This document shows, one piece after another, positions 27,398 through 33,217 of a stretch of DNA of 64,000 nt (within the stretch, counting starts at the first letter, position 1; each line of letters begins with the position of its first letter). Origin of the DNA: Oscillospiraceae bacterium (lineage in GTDB: Bacteria; Bacillota; Clostridia; Oscillospirales; Ruminococcaceae). A model generated the notes under the pieces. The model worked only from the letters and a program-made list of their open reading frames with translations. It was not told the origin of the DNA and made no database searches. The translations under genes and the position numbers were made by a program. Location: positions 1 to 64,000 of the forward strand of contig JALELV010000022.1 of the NCBI GenBank assembly GCA_022768545.1, written 5' to 3'.

Positions 27398-27426
27398 TTG
27401 ACCTTTTCGGGGGATTCGTTTACAAT
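27398..27426 (+). promoter_or_regulatory. Promoter of the rpe-rnf operon
   Basis: TTGACC (27398-27403), a 17-base spacer and TACAAT (27421-27426). It is the only clear promoter upstream of rpe and the Rnf-like genes, which follow with minimal gaps. Confidence 0.82.
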
Positions 27427-27540
27427 AAATAAGATGAAAATGTGAAATTGCGTCGTTTTTTGCGGCTGCAGTGTCTGCCCGGGGCGGTTTGAGCTCTGGA
27501 AGGGCGTTAAGGACTCAAGTTGGAAAAGGAGCATGCTGTT

Positions 27541-28233
27541 TTGATTAAAATATCGCCATCGGTGCTGGCGGCGGATTTTTCCGTTTTGCGCCGGGAAGTA
27601 CAGGACATGGAGCGGGCGGGGGTCTCGATGATCCATCTGGACGTGATGGATGGGCATTTTGTTCCGAACCTCAGCTTTGGAGCACCAGTGATCCGGTCAC
27701 TCAGGCCGCACAGCGGTCTTGTTTTTGATGTGCATCTGATGATCTCGGACCCGCTTCGCTATGTGGAGGACTATGCCGCCGCAGGGGCGGACATCATCAC
27801 CTTTCATTTGGAATCGGACAGCGGCCCTGCAGAGACGATCCGGAAGATCAAGGGCCTTGGCAAGAAGGCGGGCCTTGCCCTGAAGCCCGCTACGCCCTGG
27901 CAGGAAGCGCTGCCCTATCTGGATGAGCTGGACATGGCGGTGGTCATGACGGTGGAGCCCGGCTTTGGCGGGCAGAAATTTATGGCAGACATGATGCCGA
28001 AGGTAAAGGCCCTCCGTGAGGAGGCCGTAAAACGCGGCCTGCCGCTGGATATTTTAGTGGACGGGGGCATCGCCCCCGGCACGGCTGCCCAGGCGGTGGA
28101 AAACGGCGCCAATGTACTGGTGGCCGGGTCCGCCCTGTTTGGCAGGCCCGATTATTCCGCCGCGGTGCGGGAGCTTTTGCAGGCGGCGCAGCCGGGCGCG
28201 GCCGGGGGGAGAGGTCAGACAGAGAAAGAGTAG
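27541..28233 (+). CDS. rpe: Ribulose-phosphate 3-epimerase
   Basis: The 230-residue TIM-barrel enzyme interconverts ribulose-5-phosphate and xylulose-5-phosphate in the pentose phosphate pathway. Hallmarks are ISPSVLAADF, HLDVMDGHFVPN (metal ligands and catalytic D), VHLMI, VEPGFGGQKF and LVDGGI (catalytic D). The TTG at 27541 was chosen because AAAGGAG lies nine bases upstream and it yields the standard MIKISPS start; a TTG at 27520 would place the ribosome site inside the gene. It is the first gene of the operon that continues into the Rnf-like genes eight bases later. Confidence 0.95.
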   Translation: MIKISPSVLAADFSVLRREVQDMERAGVSMIHLDVMDGHFVPNLSFGAPVIRSLRPHSGLVFDVHLMISDPLRYVEDYAAAGADIITFHLESDSGPAETIRKIKGLGKKAGLALKPATPWQEALPYLDELDMAVVMTVEPGFGGQKFMADMMPKVKALREEAVKRGLPLDILVDGGIAPGTAAQAVENGANVLVAGSALFGRPDYSAAVRELLQAAQPGAAGGRGQTEKE

Positions 28234-28241
28234 GTGATACC

Positions 28242-29315
28242 ATGCCGGGAATATTGACCCGAGGCATTATATTGGAACAATACAAGGAGCCGGCTTTGAA
28301 CCGGCCGGTGAGGGAGTTTTTCAGCTCCAGCTACCCCGGGATGCTGTTTGAAAGCAGCCTGCCCCGGGAGGCGGAGGAGCTCGGACCGGAGAATATCATC
28401 CGTCTGGCGGAGCTTGCGGGCATTGTGGACGAGCGGGACGGAGAGCCCTTGTATCGGAAGCTGCGTCAGGCGGCGGAGCAGAAGGTTCAGATCATTGTGG
28501 CCGACGCCATTGACGACGAGCCCTATGTTTCCAGCCAGCTTGGCCCCATGCTGAAATGCTCGGAGGAGGCGGCCGCGGGGCTGCGCTTGGCGGTGAAGGC
28601 CGCCGGGGCCCAGAAGCCGTATTTCGCCGTCTATAAAAATATTACAGACCTGATGAACAAGATCCCCCGTACTCTGGAGGGGATCACAGTCAAGCGGATC
28701 CGGGGGAGATATCCGGCGGAGTTCCGCACCACCGACGATTTTGAACGGGGCACCTCCCTTGCGGTGCTGGGCGTCTGTTCGCTGATCCATCTCTGCCGGG
28801 CTGTTCGGGATCATCGGATCCAGTCCACCTGCTTTGTGACGGTGGCGGGCAACTGCGTGGCAAACCCCATGAACCTGGAGGCTTCCGTGGGGATGACAGT
28901 GGCCCAGCTGCTGGAGCGCTGCGGCCTGGCGGACGACCCGGGCCGGGTGATCGTAGGGGGGCCCATGACGGGGGTGGCCTGCCGGGATACCGAGGCGACG
29001 GTGATCTCCGCCGGGACCAGAGCAGTGCTGGCCTTTAGGGAGGACACAAAGGATCGGCGTTACCAGTGCATCGGCTGCGGAAAATGTGTGGAGTGCTGTC
29101 CGGAAAATCTGACTCCCTTTTACATCAACAAATATATTGAAAAAGGCCGTATGGAAATGCTGGATTTTTATGAGATCGACCGCTGCATCAGCTGTGGGAC
29201 ATGCTCTTATGTCTGCCCGGCAAAGCTGGACATTGCGGACAACATCAAGGCGGCCAAGGCCGCCAGAAGGAAAAATACGACAGGGGGGGCTGGGCGATGC
29301 AAGATAAAGAGCTGA
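28242..29315 (+). CDS. RnfC-like protein, truncated and lacking the flavin/NADH motif
   Basis: The 357-residue protein aligns to the C-terminal three quarters of RnfC. Recognisable blocks are DDEPY (RnfC ECEPY), VTVAGNCVANPMN, VIVGGPMTG, and two intact ferredoxin-type 4Fe-4S motifs (CIGCGKCVECCP from C276, CISCGTCSYVCP from C315). The usual N-terminal barrel-sandwich domain is absent. The GxGGAGFPT glycine loop that binds flavin/NADH is replaced by AGIVDERDGEPLY (residues 59-71). The YPxGGxK segment is also lost. Electron entry from NADH is therefore doubtful. It overlaps rnfD by 19 bases. Confidence 0.82.
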   Translation: MPGILTRGIILEQYKEPALNRPVREFFSSSYPGMLFESSLPREAEELGPENIIRLAELAGIVDERDGEPLYRKLRQAAEQKVQIIVADAIDDEPYVSSQLGPMLKCSEEAAAGLRLAVKAAGAQKPYFAVYKNITDLMNKIPRTLEGITVKRIRGRYPAEFRTTDDFERGTSLAVLGVCSLIHLCRAVRDHRIQSTCFVTVAGNCVANPMNLEASVGMTVAQLLERCGLADDPGRVIVGGPMTGVACRDTEATVISAGTRAVLAFREDTKDRRYQCIGCGKCVECCPENLTPFYINKYIEKGRMEMLDFYEIDRCISCGTCSYVCPAKLDIADNIKAAKAARRKNTTGGAGRCKIKS

Positions 29316-30310
29316 AGGCTCCTCATATCCGGATGCGGGAATCCGCCCGGTCCGCCATGCTGGACGTGGTGATCGCGCTGCTGCCGCTTTACTTTATGGC
29401 CGCGTATTTTTACGGGATGCGGGCGGTGGCTTTGGGGGCGGTGTCCGCGGCCTCCGCGGTGGCTGCAGACATGCTCTGTGTGCTGGTCTCCGGCCGGCTG
29501 CCTAACCTGCGGGATCTTTCCGCTCTGGTCACCGGGCTTCTTCTGCCGTTGATGCTTCCCGCCTCCATTCCCTATTACGTGGTGATTACAGCGGCGGTGT
29601 TCGCCATCGCGGTGGTTAAGCATCCTTTTGGCGGGGTGGGGCAGAATATCTTTAACCCTGCGGCGGGTGGCTTTGCCTTTATCAGTGTGTGCTGGCCATC
29701 CCTGGTGTTTTCTTATCCGCAGCCCATGTTTCCGCTGCCCATTGCGGGGGAGCTCACTGCACGGCTGGCGGAGAGCCCCGCCCATGCCCTGATGCTGGGT
29801 GCGGTGCCTACGATCGACACGCTGGACCTGGTGCTGGGAAGGTTTGCAGGGCCCATGGGGGTCACCAACATTCTGGTGCTGGGCACCTGCTTTATCTACC
29901 TGCTGTTTCGAAAGGTGATCTCCTGGCAGGCCCCGGTAGCTTTTTTGGCCGCGGCCGCGGCCACGGCGTATTTTTCTCCCCGTATTCCCGCCTCCCGGTG
30001 GGAGTCGGTGGTGTTTGAACTGCTCTCCGGGACCCTTGTGTTTGCGGGGGTGTTCCTTCTGGGAGACCCGGTGACCTCCCCCAAACGGGGGCTTTCCCGG
30101 TTTTTATACGGCGCGCTGGCGGGCGGGGCTACCATGCTGTTCCGCTACTGCGGCGGGTTTGAGCAGGCGGCGGCCTTTGCGCTGCTGCTGGTAAACAGCT
30201 TTACCCTGCTGATCGATCATGAGGCAGAGAGACTTTTCAGAATTGTAAGGAGGGGTATCCTTGGCTTCAGAGCGTACCGCCGCAGCCGGCGGATTGTTAA
30301 AAAGGTGTAA
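29297..30310 (+). CDS. RnfD-like membrane protein without the FMN-attachment motif
   Basis: The 337-residue protein has about nine to ten transmembrane helices and the RnfD/NqrB family block HPFGGVGQNIFNPAAGGFAF (about residues 109-128), plus LGDPVTSPKRG and the C-terminal LLVNSFTLLIDHEAER. In ordinary RnfD an S-x-A-T motif carries covalently bound FMN. The corresponding region here reads LGAVPTID (167-174), without that pattern. The start is an ATG inside the end of the rnfC-like gene. The usual next gene, rnfG, is missing; the rnfE-like gene overlaps instead. Confidence 0.82.
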   Translation: MQDKELKAPHIRMRESARSAMLDVVIALLPLYFMAAYFYGMRAVALGAVSAASAVAADMLCVLVSGRLPNLRDLSALVTGLLLPLMLPASIPYYVVITAAVFAIAVVKHPFGGVGQNIFNPAAGGFAFISVCWPSLVFSYPQPMFPLPIAGELTARLAESPAHALMLGAVPTIDTLDLVLGRFAGPMGVTNILVLGTCFIYLLFRKVISWQAPVAFLAAAAATAYFSPRIPASRWESVVFELLSGTLVFAGVFLLGDPVTSPKRGLSRFLYGALAGGATMLFRYCGGFEQAAAFALLLVNSFTLLIDHEAERLFRIVRRGILGFRAYRRSRRIVKKV

Positions 30311-30905
30311 ACAGGCCCTGGCGGAGAACCCCGTCCTTTTTGGGGGGCTTGCCCTGGCGCCGGTGGTGATGGTGGCTACCACGGTCAAAAATGCCGTGGC
30401 GCTGATGATCGTCATGGCTTGTACGCTGGTCCCCGTCATGCTGCTGGAGGCGGTGCTGGCAAGGTATCTGCCCATGGTGCCCGATTTTGCGAGGATGGCG
30501 CTCTGCGCTGTTTTTGCCGCGGCCATGCTGATGCCGGCCAGACTGGCGGTAGCCCCTCTGGCACAGAATATATTCGACTCCCTCGGCATGTACTTTGCCC
30601 TGACTGGGGTGAGCGCGCTGATGTTTCTGCACAGCCCCGGCAGAGAGCCGGAGGGCCCGCGCTTTGCGGTGACAGACGCCGTCTGCGGGACTCTGGGCTT
30701 TGCACTGGCGGTGTTTTTGACAGGTGCGGTGCGGGAGGCGCTCTCGCTTGGCACCTTCTGGGGGGTTCCCCTGGGCTTTTCCGTGAAATTTCCCGCCATG
30801 GCCATGCCCTTTGCGGGCTTCTTCACAGCGGCGTTCTGGGCGGCGGCCTGGAACAGCCTGTCCCGGCTGATCGGCCGGATGGGCGGCGGAAGGGAGGTAG
30901 AATAG
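30261..30905 (+). CDS. RnfE-like membrane protein lacking the Fe-S cysteines
   Basis: The 214-residue protein has six predicted transmembrane helices and aligns with RnfE/NqrD throughout, for example AENPVLFGGLALAPVVMVATT and GAVREALSLGTFWG. In working Rnf/Nqr a conserved LGxCP half-helix cysteine and a TNC cysteine ligate the intramembrane 2Fe-2S cluster. Here those positions are A33 (LALAP) and about A119 (SLGMYFALTGVSA). The TTG start has a perfect AAGGAGGGG five bases upstream and overlaps the end of the rnfD-like gene by 50 bases. The frame is intact over its full length. Confidence 0.8.
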   Translation: MASERTAAAGGLLKRCKQALAENPVLFGGLALAPVVMVATTVKNAVALMIVMACTLVPVMLLEAVLARYLPMVPDFARMALCAVFAAAMLMPARLAVAPLAQNIFDSLGMYFALTGVSALMFLHSPGREPEGPRFAVTDAVCGTLGFALAVFLTGAVREALSLGTFWGVPLGFSVKFPAMAMPFAGFFTAAFWAAAWNSLSRLIGRMGGGREVE

Positions 30906-30907
30906 GG

Positions 30908-31495
30908 ATGACTTCGTTTTTGCTGGTGGCCGCCGTTGCGGTCTTTTTGGAAAACGCATTGTTTGCCCGGGCGCTGGATATCAGTGTCCTTCTTCCTGCT
31001 CTTCACAGCCGCAGGACGATCTGGATCTATGGCCTTGCCGTTACCCTCTCCAGCTCCGCGGCGGGCGGGGTGGCCTGGGGGCTGCACAGCCTTCTGCAGG
31101 GCGGGGGATGGTATGCCTCTTACGGGCAGCCATTTTTGTTCCTCACGGCGCAGGCGTTTCTGTATGCGGTGGTGTGCGCCGGGCTGCGTGCTTACAAAAA
31201 AGAACTTTACCGCGCCATCCGGGTGCCGCTGACCATTTCCTTCTTTAACTGTGCCGCGCTGGGCTCCATGTTTTTGGCGGTGTATAAAGCCGGAAGCTTC
31301 TGGGGCGCGGTGGGAACAGGGGCCGGGGTGGGCGTTGGGTTTTTGCTGGCGTGTGCGCTGGTGCGGGTGGAGGAGGGGCGCCTTGCCATCTGCAATGTGC
31401 CCAGAGCTTTTCAGGGGCTTCCCATCCGCCTGATGTATATCGGCCTGCTGGCGCTTGCCACCTACGGCCTGATCGGGCATCAGCTTCCTGTTTGA
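30908..31495 (+). CDS. RnfA-like membrane protein with one of two Fe-S cysteines
   Basis: The 195-residue protein aligns with RnfA/RsxA (six helices). The second cluster cysteine is kept in FFNCAALG (C115, compare TNCAVLG). The C-terminal RLAICNVPRAFQGLPI matches RLAVADVPAPFRGNAI of E. coli RsxA. The first cysteine, normally in GLCPFMGVS, is replaced by DISVLLPAL (S26). Three of the four ligands of the shared RnfA/RnfE cluster are therefore lost. It starts two bases after the rnfE-like stop. rnfB, usually next, is absent. Confidence 0.82.
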   Translation: MTSFLLVAAVAVFLENALFARALDISVLLPALHSRRTIWIYGLAVTLSSSAAGGVAWGLHSLLQGGGWYASYGQPFLFLTAQAFLYAVVCAGLRAYKKELYRAIRVPLTISFFNCAALGSMFLAVYKAGSFWGAVGTGAGVGVGFLLACALVRVEEGRLAICNVPRAFQGLPIRLMYIGLLALATYGLIGHQLPV

Positions 31496-31584: not shown

Positions 31585-32859
31585 ATGGCAAAAAAATATA
31601 AGATCAAGCGCTACCGCAGGATCTACCGTTCCAACCGGAATTCCCGGGTGACGGCGGGCGGCGTGATCCTGGCGGCACTGGGGCTTTTGGCGGTGGCCTT
31701 TATCGGCTGGAGCGTTTACGGCCCGGTCTCCGATTTTATCAGCGGAAGGCTGAGCGCAGGCCCTTCGTCTTCCTCCGCTTCAGAGAGTGAGAGGGAGGAG
31801 GAGACGCCGTCCTCTGCGCCGGATGGTTCCCAGCCGGAGCAGACACCGGAACCGGCCGGGACGGACTTTCGGAACCTGCGGGTGGCTTACCTGCCTGCCG
31901 CCTTTCTGGCGGACGAGACTGCGCTGCAAAGCACGCTGGAGCGCCTGCAGGCCAAAGGGATAAATGCGGTGGTGTATGACGCAAAGGACGCGGTGGGGCA
32001 GGTGCTTTATACCTCCGGCAATGAACGGGTGGCAGCGGCGGAGGCCATGGCCGCAGCCCCCTATGACCTGGAAAAGGTCAGTTCGCTCTTAAAGAAAAAC
32101 GGCTTTACCGGTATTGCCCGGGTGTATGCGTTTAAAGATCACACAGCCTCCCGCACCCTGGTGGAAGCGGGGGTAAAATATATGGATACCGACTGGCTCT
32201 GGCTGGATAACTCCCGTGAAGCGGGCGGCCGCAGCTGGCTCAACCCCTACTCCGAGCTGGCGCGCATGTATGTGGCGGATGTCGCGCTGGAATGTGTGGA
32301 AAAGGGCGCAGACGCGGTAATGCTGGATGGAGTACACTTCCCCACAGGGCTGGGCCTGGAGCTTGCCTCTTATGGGAGCGGGAGTGCCTCCAAAACAAGG
32401 CAGGAAGTCTTATCCGGCTTTGTGGAGGACACGCGGGAGCTGGTGGAGGAAAATGGCGGGGAACTGATCGTCTCGGCCTCGGGCTCCGCCATGCTGCTTG
32501 CAAACGCCGCGGAGTACCCGGACAGCCCGCTGAAGTTTCCGGCGGATATTTTTGCGCCGGATGTGACCCCGGCTTCCTTTGGCTTGGGAGTGGAGAGCGG
32601 CACCCTTACCCTGGCCGACCCGGTGCTTTCCCCCTACGACACGGTCTATTCCGTGGCGAAGCGCATTACGGCGGGAAAAACGGAGAGCAAGGTGTTTCTG
32701 CCCTTTATCCAGGCTTACAGCACGCCGGATTACGGCCGCGCCTATACGGAGACGGATGTGGAGGAGCAGCTCCGGGCTCTGAAGGACCTGGGCATCTCCG
32801 GCTATATTCTGTACGATCCCTCCGGCGCCTACGATCTGGTGCCCGTTTTGGACCAATAA
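31585..32859 (+). CDS. Putative glycoside hydrolase, DUF4015 family
   Basis: The 424-residue protein has a basic cytoplasmic N-terminus, one membrane anchor (about residues 26-50), a Ser/Glu/Pro linker (to about 92) and an extracellular TIM-barrel-like domain. It matches the DUF4015 putative glycosyl hydrolase family (INAVVYDAKDAVG, DTDWLWLD, GADAVMLDGVHFP, DIFAPDVTP, FLPFIQAYS). Activity is unproven for most members. The start has AAGGGGG eleven bases upstream. It follows the rnfA-like gene by 89 bases on the same strand and is closed by a terminator, so it may be the last gene of the rpe-rnf unit. Confidence 0.83.
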   Translation: MAKKYKIKRYRRIYRSNRNSRVTAGGVILAALGLLAVAFIGWSVYGPVSDFISGRLSAGPSSSSASESEREEETPSSAPDGSQPEQTPEPAGTDFRNLRVAYLPAAFLADETALQSTLERLQAKGINAVVYDAKDAVGQVLYTSGNERVAAAEAMAAAPYDLEKVSSLLKKNGFTGIARVYAFKDHTASRTLVEAGVKYMDTDWLWLDNSREAGGRSWLNPYSELARMYVADVALECVEKGADAVMLDGVHFPTGLGLELASYGSGSASKTRQEVLSGFVEDTRELVEENGGELIVSASGSAMLLANAAEYPDSPLKFPADIFAPDVTPASFGLGVESGTLTLADPVLSPYDTVYSVAKRITAGKTESKVFLPFIQAYSTPDYGRAYTETDVEEQLRALKDLGISGYILYDPSGAYDLVPVLDQ

Positions 32860-32894
32860 AGAAAAATCACAGATTTCATCCGCGGATATCAAAT

Positions 32895-32934
32895 GCAAAA
32901 ATGCCCTGCTCGCTTGCGAGCAGGGCATTTTTGC
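32895..32934. terminator. Bidirectional terminator
   Basis: A nearly loopless 19-bp inverted repeat (GCAAAAATGCCCTGCTCGC, 32895-32913, with 32916-32934) has A-rich 5' and T-rich 3' arms. It ends the DUF4015 gene transcript and could stop minus-strand transcripts too. Confidence 0.85.
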
Positions 32935-33217
32935 AAGAAGATGATAGGAGTGCAATCTATGAAGAACGATGAAACCGGAGTATTTGGTCTGTCCCATCTG
33001 CCGGGCTGGTGTTCCATCCACCCGGCAGACTGACAGCTGTTCTTGTTTTCGTGAAAAAGAACCTGTGAAGAAAAAGCTTTTGTGCACGGAGGGCTGGGCC
33101 CCCGGTTTGCTTGTCTTATCTGACTGTCTTTATGATACACCGGGATTATGATTTCCCTATGAAAGTCCCGCAAACGATCTGCAAATAAACCGTGAAAAAA
33201 TTGTGTCCGTCAAATTC

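Follow-up and report, generated by a model that had tools for sequence, protein, structure and literature searches.

A reduced operon derived from Rnf encodes a barrel-less RnfC paralogue with two intact 4Fe-4S motifs in an Oscillospiraceae bacterium

The window (the whole stretch of 64,000 nucleotides analysed here) contains an operon in the order rpe-C'-D'-E'-A'-DUF4015, in which C' (28242..29315, + strand; 357 residues) is a paralogue of RnfC that lacks the barrel and the FMN/NADH loop, as indicated by profiles, alignment and a predicted model, and is directly followed at its 3' side by paralogues of RnfD, RnfE and RnfA. The trees and the synteny show that this operon arose through one stepwise reduction, in which a canonical rnf operon located between rpe and DUF4015 lost RnfG, RnfB and the FMN loop, and then the barrel; in a sister branch, C' was wholly lost and D'E'A' were kept. 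We tentatively propose, giving this reading somewhat less than an even chance, that C' is a two-cluster relay sitting on a riboflavin-bearing D', in a redox-gated C'D'E'A' complex derived stepwise from canonical Rnf.

Profile search revealed that the best curated family of C' is TIGR01945 (rnfC), with 161 bits and an E-value of 2.6e-47, which lies below the curated cut-off of 246 bits. C' shares a NuoF-like/SLBB core with PduS and PrdC, the SLBB-type relatives of RnfC; however, in the comparison suggested by the earlier note, PrdC gave a far weaker match of 42 bits, and membership in the PduS/PrdC group was thus rejected. Sequence search against solved structures found the nearest chains in RnfC of A. 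woodii, C. tetanomorphum and A. vinelandii, and RnfC chains were the only near-full-length relatives. The predicted model of C' (pLDDT 80.3) also matches RnfC best, with a TMq of 0.72 to 8ahx_C and 0.71 to 9eri_C (range over RnfC 0.69-0.73), followed by NqrA at about 0.56. C' possesses two features of RnfC, the fold, as seen in the predicted model, and two C-terminal 4Fe-4S motifs.

The first 4Fe-4S motif, CIGCGKCVECCP (C276-P287; 29067..29102, + strand), and the second, CISCGTCSYVCP (C315-P326; 29184..29219, + strand), are complete CxxCxxCxxxCP motifs, and all eight cysteines are invariant among 41 C' sequences, the relatives being 37-81% identical. The FMN/NADH motifs of RnfC, GxGGAGFPT, ECEPY and YPxGxxK, are replaced in C' of the window and in its relatives. 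Pairwise alignment against the canonical RnfC of the same genome, a control with intact FMN sites, placed DERD-GEPL at GLGGAGFPT, DAIDDEPY at NGAECEPY and YPAEFR at YPQGAEK; these results bear out the earlier note, which had described two perfect 4Fe-4S motifs next to an absent glycine loop, an ECEPY reading DDEPY and a lost YPxGGxK segment. The three replacements are located at residues 63-70 (DERDGEPL; 28428..28451, + strand), 88-95 (28503..28526, + strand) and 155-162 (GRYPAEFR for SYPQGAEK by alignment; 28704..28727, + strand). Residues D63, E64, D66, G67 and L70 of the first, D88, A89 and D91-Y95 of the second (some positions of D91-Y95 being common to RnfC and hence not new), and Y157 and P158 of the third are invariant in the 41 sequences, and every C'-type sequence aligned with the canonical RnfC of this genome carries a D-rich loop instead of the glycine loop. 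As the new residues are invariant across this set, the change of motifs is fixed rather than noise.

The loss at the N-terminus differs from that first described, namely a missing N-terminal domain with the protein starting at the second domain of RnfC. The barrel (RnfC_N) is gone, but an arm of ~25 residues is kept, in which G8, Q13, K15, E16 and P17 are invariant; alignment bridged by barrel-keeping intermediates assigns the start of C' to the N-terminal arm of RnfC, not to the second domain. The arm of C. tetanomorphum RnfC comprises residues 1-30 and its first subdomain residues 30-101 (PMC9588780); C' jumps from the arm straight to the NuoF-like domain, with the barrel alone deleted. The RnfC_N profile (PF13375) scores 104 bits in the canonical RnfC of this genome, 55 bits in the intermediate L121 and 25 bits in L083, and gives no match in L080 or in C' of the window. 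An upstream frame for the missing domain was also looked for, and the 74 open codons found there overlap rpe and do not match RnfC_N. Judged from the alignment, the deletion is internal, not a plain N-terminal truncation. At the other end of the protein, C' is elongated up to 1015 residues in Anaerotruncus and others (L042:5875-8922, L044:5875-8931, L049, L053, L040, L041, L071, L072 and L011). These C-terminal extensions are charged, Ala-rich or coiled-coil-like, somewhat similar to the C-terminal extension of some RnfC/RsxC proteins; a search for an extra catalytic domain in them gave no confident Pfam domain, only charged or coiled-coil-like repeats.

The genes of the operon overlap or are closely spaced. 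Upstream lies rpe (27538..28233, + strand), encoding ribulose-phosphate 3-epimerase (TIGR01163, 247 bits), preceded by a weak sigma-70-like match to 10 of 12 consensus positions (27398..27426, + strand) that might be the operon promoter; four such matches were found against 2.0 expected in shuffles. Downstream of C' follow D' (29297..30310, + strand; PF03116, 256 bits), E' (30261..30905, + strand; PF02508), A' (30908..31495, + strand; PF02508) and the DUF4015 gene (31585..32859, + strand; PF13200, 150 bits), and a strong terminator-like palindrome with a 19-pair stem (32894..32935) closes the operon. This hairpin, which separates the operon from the genes beyond, has A- and T-rich flanks and is possibly bidirectional. 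D', E' and A' are similar in hydropathy to the canonical subunits. The order C'-D'-E'-A'-DUF4015 is found in 41/41 loci with flanks examined, 40 of which also have rpe upstream, and RnfG and RnfB are encoded at none of the C' loci examined, which hold only C, D, E and A of the six Rnf subunits. An assembly or frameshift artefact was rejected, as the closely related locus L033, at 81% identity, and some 40 others have the same layout.

The DUF4015 protein has an N-terminal hydrophobic helix and a TIM barrel; its model (pLDDT 88.5) presents one long helix ahead of a barrel that resembles Cwp19 and the glycoside hydrolase domain of PgaB, which makes a glycan-active role in the envelope probable. 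Since DUF4015 is also found next to canonical rnf, and persists where rnf is absent, its link to C'D'E'A' may reflect inherited synteny, and it was not accepted as an obligatory partner. At L152-L155 and L130, rpe sits beside or near DUF4015 with no rnf genes between them.

To evaluate the membrane subunits, residue roles for the cofactor sites were taken from PMC9588780 and PMC12174285, and every ligand was kept in the 14/14 canonical control sequences. The RnfD FMN-threonine is kept in 0/67 reduced relatives; its column holds Ser in many rows, including the window, in addition to N, G and R, which leaves a small doubt, since by sequence flavinylation of D' would not be strictly barred where Ser replaces Thr. 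The FMN-pocket Arg130 equivalent is lost in all reduced forms, and that of Glu185 in all except the intermediate L121; D' of the window has lost all three. Both cluster cysteines of RnfE are kept in 0/67 and 0/67 reduced relatives, and the first cysteine of RnfA in 1/61, the second being kept in part; accordingly in the window E' lacks both and A' only the first, and at most one of the four cysteines of the RnfA/RnfE [2Fe-2S] site remains. The riboflavin/Na+ residues of D' are preserved, with Asn120 and Asp257 of the window equivalent to Ct Asn124 and Asp248, and Asn124 and Asp/Glu248 kept in 47/47 loci each where C' is present. Where C' is missing, Asn124 survives in just 5/14 loci, counts that are not phylogenetically independent, and the position is often His in these C'-less loci (L138-L151).

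C' lacks the residues for NADH and FMN, RnfG and RnfB are absent, D' has lost its FMN site and A'/E' their [2Fe-2S] site; by its sequence C'D'E'A' should therefore not receive electrons from RnfB, run ferredoxin:NAD+ oxidoreduction or perform transmembrane electron transfer along the known Rnf route. The idea of an iron-sulfur adaptor that no longer oxidises NADH is thus upheld in one half: the FMN/NADH residues are absent beside invariant Fe-S cysteines, which points to a loss of NADH oxidation. The other half has to be revised, as the whole complex is reduced and C' cannot feed a working Rnf membrane path. A hybrid in which C'D'E'A' borrow canonical RnfB and RnfG to form an alternative Rnf appears quite improbable. 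Canonical Rnf does occur in nearly every genome with a reduced operon, including this one, where a complete rnfCDGEAB with all motifs intact lies on another contig; but E'A' have no cluster for RnfB/RnfG to reach, D' has no FMN site, and G042, the genome with the L121 form, has no RnfB anywhere. A hidden second RnfB was rejected, since nearly every relative encodes just one RnfB, which belongs to the canonical locus and never adjoins the reduced one. The canonical RnfG of this genome (L077:4665-5978, - strand) is unusually long (437 residues), with what look by eye like two or three FMN-binding repeats.

The elements that are kept, a pair of 4Fe-4S sites on C' and the residues for riboflavin/Na+ on D', are neighbours in the Rnf electron path, in which the clusters of RnfC receive electrons from the riboflavin of RnfD, a subunit resembling ammonium/urea transporters (PMC9588780, PMC12174285). 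The simplest functional reading we can infer is that a short relay in the cytoplasm ends at the riboflavin of a protein with an ammonium/urea-transporter-like fold. C' would pass electrons between a cytosolic partner other than NADH and the riboflavin in D', whose redox state would gate D' for the passage of an ion or solute; E'A' would serve as a cluster-free helical partner, and D'E'A' would run without the redox gate in lineages that lost C'. The joint loss of C' and erosion of the riboflavin residues, with D'E'A' persisting, fits this reading. Against it, the conserved Fe-S cysteines could be structural, cluster assembly and riboflavin binding are predicted features, and the lineages without C' show that some members can do without redox input. 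If electrons instead left the complex, C' might hand them from D'-riboflavin or ferredoxin to a cytosolic redox sensor or Fe-S enzyme, like the E. coli RSX, which is thought to reduce SoxR (PMC12174285). The two clusters and the invariant acidic site do suggest a protein or ion partner, but without [2Fe-2S], FMN, RnfG and RnfB there is no membrane electron supply, and the operon has no conserved redox partner gene, so that such a reducing device seems improbable.

The main rival to the redox gate is a purely structural role, in which C' would be an NqrA-like pseudo-subunit with structural or vestigial clusters that does no more than stabilise D', and C'D'E'A' would form a redox-independent transporter or scaffold, perhaps with the extracellular DUF4015 protein; we consider it rather doubtful, though well ahead of the reducing device. 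NqrA is a cofactor-free homologue of RnfC to which no direct function is assigned (PMC12174285), and C' is likewise an RnfC-derived subunit without an FMN/NADH site. They differ in what else was lost: NqrA keeps the barrel and lost the Fe-S motifs, whereas C' lacks the barrel and keeps its eight cysteines invariant. Of the marks of NqrA, namely absent Fe-S motifs, a full-length barrel and nqrF in the operon, none is seen at the C' locus, and across the 41 C' loci there is no conserved nqrF-like gene, rpe and DUF4015 being the conserved neighbours. The persistence of D'E'A' without C' in 14 genomes and the presence of the glycan-enzyme-like TIM barrel of DUF4015 at the 3' side in 41/41 loci agree with the structural role, but the riboflavin/Na+ residues are fully kept wherever C' is present, and the linkage to DUF4015, which flanks canonical rnf and survives without it, may be inherited.

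Loci found through DUF4015 and compared by neighbourhood form a graded series that occupies a single syntenic position. Canonical rnfCDGEAB is followed by DUF4015 in families of the order other than this one (L118, L119, L120 and L122; also with rpe in L120), and so it is in L133, whose DUF4015, at the end of the contig, is partial. In L121 the barrel is still there, but G and B are missing, together with the FMN loop and the majority of the membrane ligands; in L083 and L084 the new loop coexists with barrel-like sequence; L080 and L082 retain remnants; and the locus in the window lacks the barrel, as do some 50 others. Another 14 genomes (L138-L151) have D'E'A'-DUF4015 and no RnfC, with rpe upstream in 13 (L150 begins at D'), and L152-L155 retain rpe and DUF4015 only. 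The L121 locus also encodes an RnfE-like protein (L121:5857-7374) with a charged, disordered-looking N-terminal extension of ~290 residues; an RnfG hidden in this 505-residue frame was rejected, given no FMN_bind match and a charged extension of low complexity.

The phylogeny proposed for the truncated form grouped the reduced forms without exception in a single clade inside canonical Rnf, with SH-aLRT support of 99 (D+E+A) and 95 (C). Within this clade L121 is the first branch; L083 and L084 come next in the D+E+A tree, after which the C'-less and the C'-bearing forms separate. The trees were rooted on Thiobacillus Rnf and carry SH-aLRT support only, with several weak inner branches (81-94) and some long rows. 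These successive losses, which in some genomes go as far as total absence, could be taken as decay of a pseudo-operon with no present function, which is nevertheless very improbable and largely refuted by conservation. The dN/dS of C' against its closest relative is 0.13, and all measurable pairs of all four genes lie at 0.04-0.33, well below 1, indicating purifying selection; the new motifs are invariant; and a C' profile search found one copy each in 71/299 genomes and 37/126 genera of the family, with a single internal stop among them. In a class-wide sample of 291 genomes, scores of at least 200 bits occurred in members of the order only, and among the matches listed, those outside the order had 171-184 bits, the level of canonical RnfC.

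As relatives without C' retain D'E'A', this membrane module may be the functional core. A bolder form of this view, which we regard as unlikely though not far behind the redox gate, is that D'E'A' turned into a transporter or gate free of redox cofactors. C' would then be a detachable regulator with iron-sulfur clusters, in which the NADH pocket was remodelled into an invariant acidic site made up of D63, E64, D66, D88, D91, D92 and E93.

Compared to Rnf (RnfABCDGE), the complex shares homologous C, D, E and A, the RnfC fold, two 4Fe-4S motifs and the riboflavin/Na+ residues of RnfD, and is without the barrel, the FMN/NADH residues, RnfG, RnfB, the FMN site of D and the [2Fe-2S] site of A/E. 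NQR was proposed to have arisen from an rnf duplicate after loss of rnfB (PMC4014512), and the present operon looks like a second, separate case of an rnf copy that lost rnfB and the NADH site of RnfC; however, NQR kept its membrane cofactors and gained NqrF, whereas C'D'E'A' lost the membrane cofactors. The two-subunit NQR/RNF-like systems are also partial descendants of Rnf with an unconserved RnfD-like flavinylation site (PMC8238504, PMC10979944), but they have an RnfG-like flavoprotein and an NAD-binding NqrF domain and no RnfA/E, the reverse of the situation here. A derivative keeping C, D, E and A minus the membrane cofactors was not found described in the open-access papers searched, and a description may exist elsewhere.

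For annotation, such loci should not be called Rnf complexes or credited with ferredoxin oxidation. For Rnf and NQR, in which electron flow is coupled to Na+ movement, the ion path has been proposed to lie either in RnfD or between or within RnfA/E (PMC12174285). The reduced operon provides a natural separation-of-function experiment, as D, E and A have remained under selection after losing FMN and [2Fe-2S], and whatever D'E'A' do needs neither the FMN of D nor the [2Fe-2S] cluster of A/E. Graded intermediates of this reduction are still alive and cultured hosts exist, such as Anaerotruncus colihominis DSM 17241 (L044); if the membrane core did become a transporter or gate free of redox cofactors, they would form a living graded series from redox pump to non-redox transporter. 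Altogether, this conserved operon of gut bacteria descends from an old Rnf copy, and its membrane parts remain under selection despite having lost nearly all of their electron-carrying groups, suggesting a new role for the membrane core of the pump.
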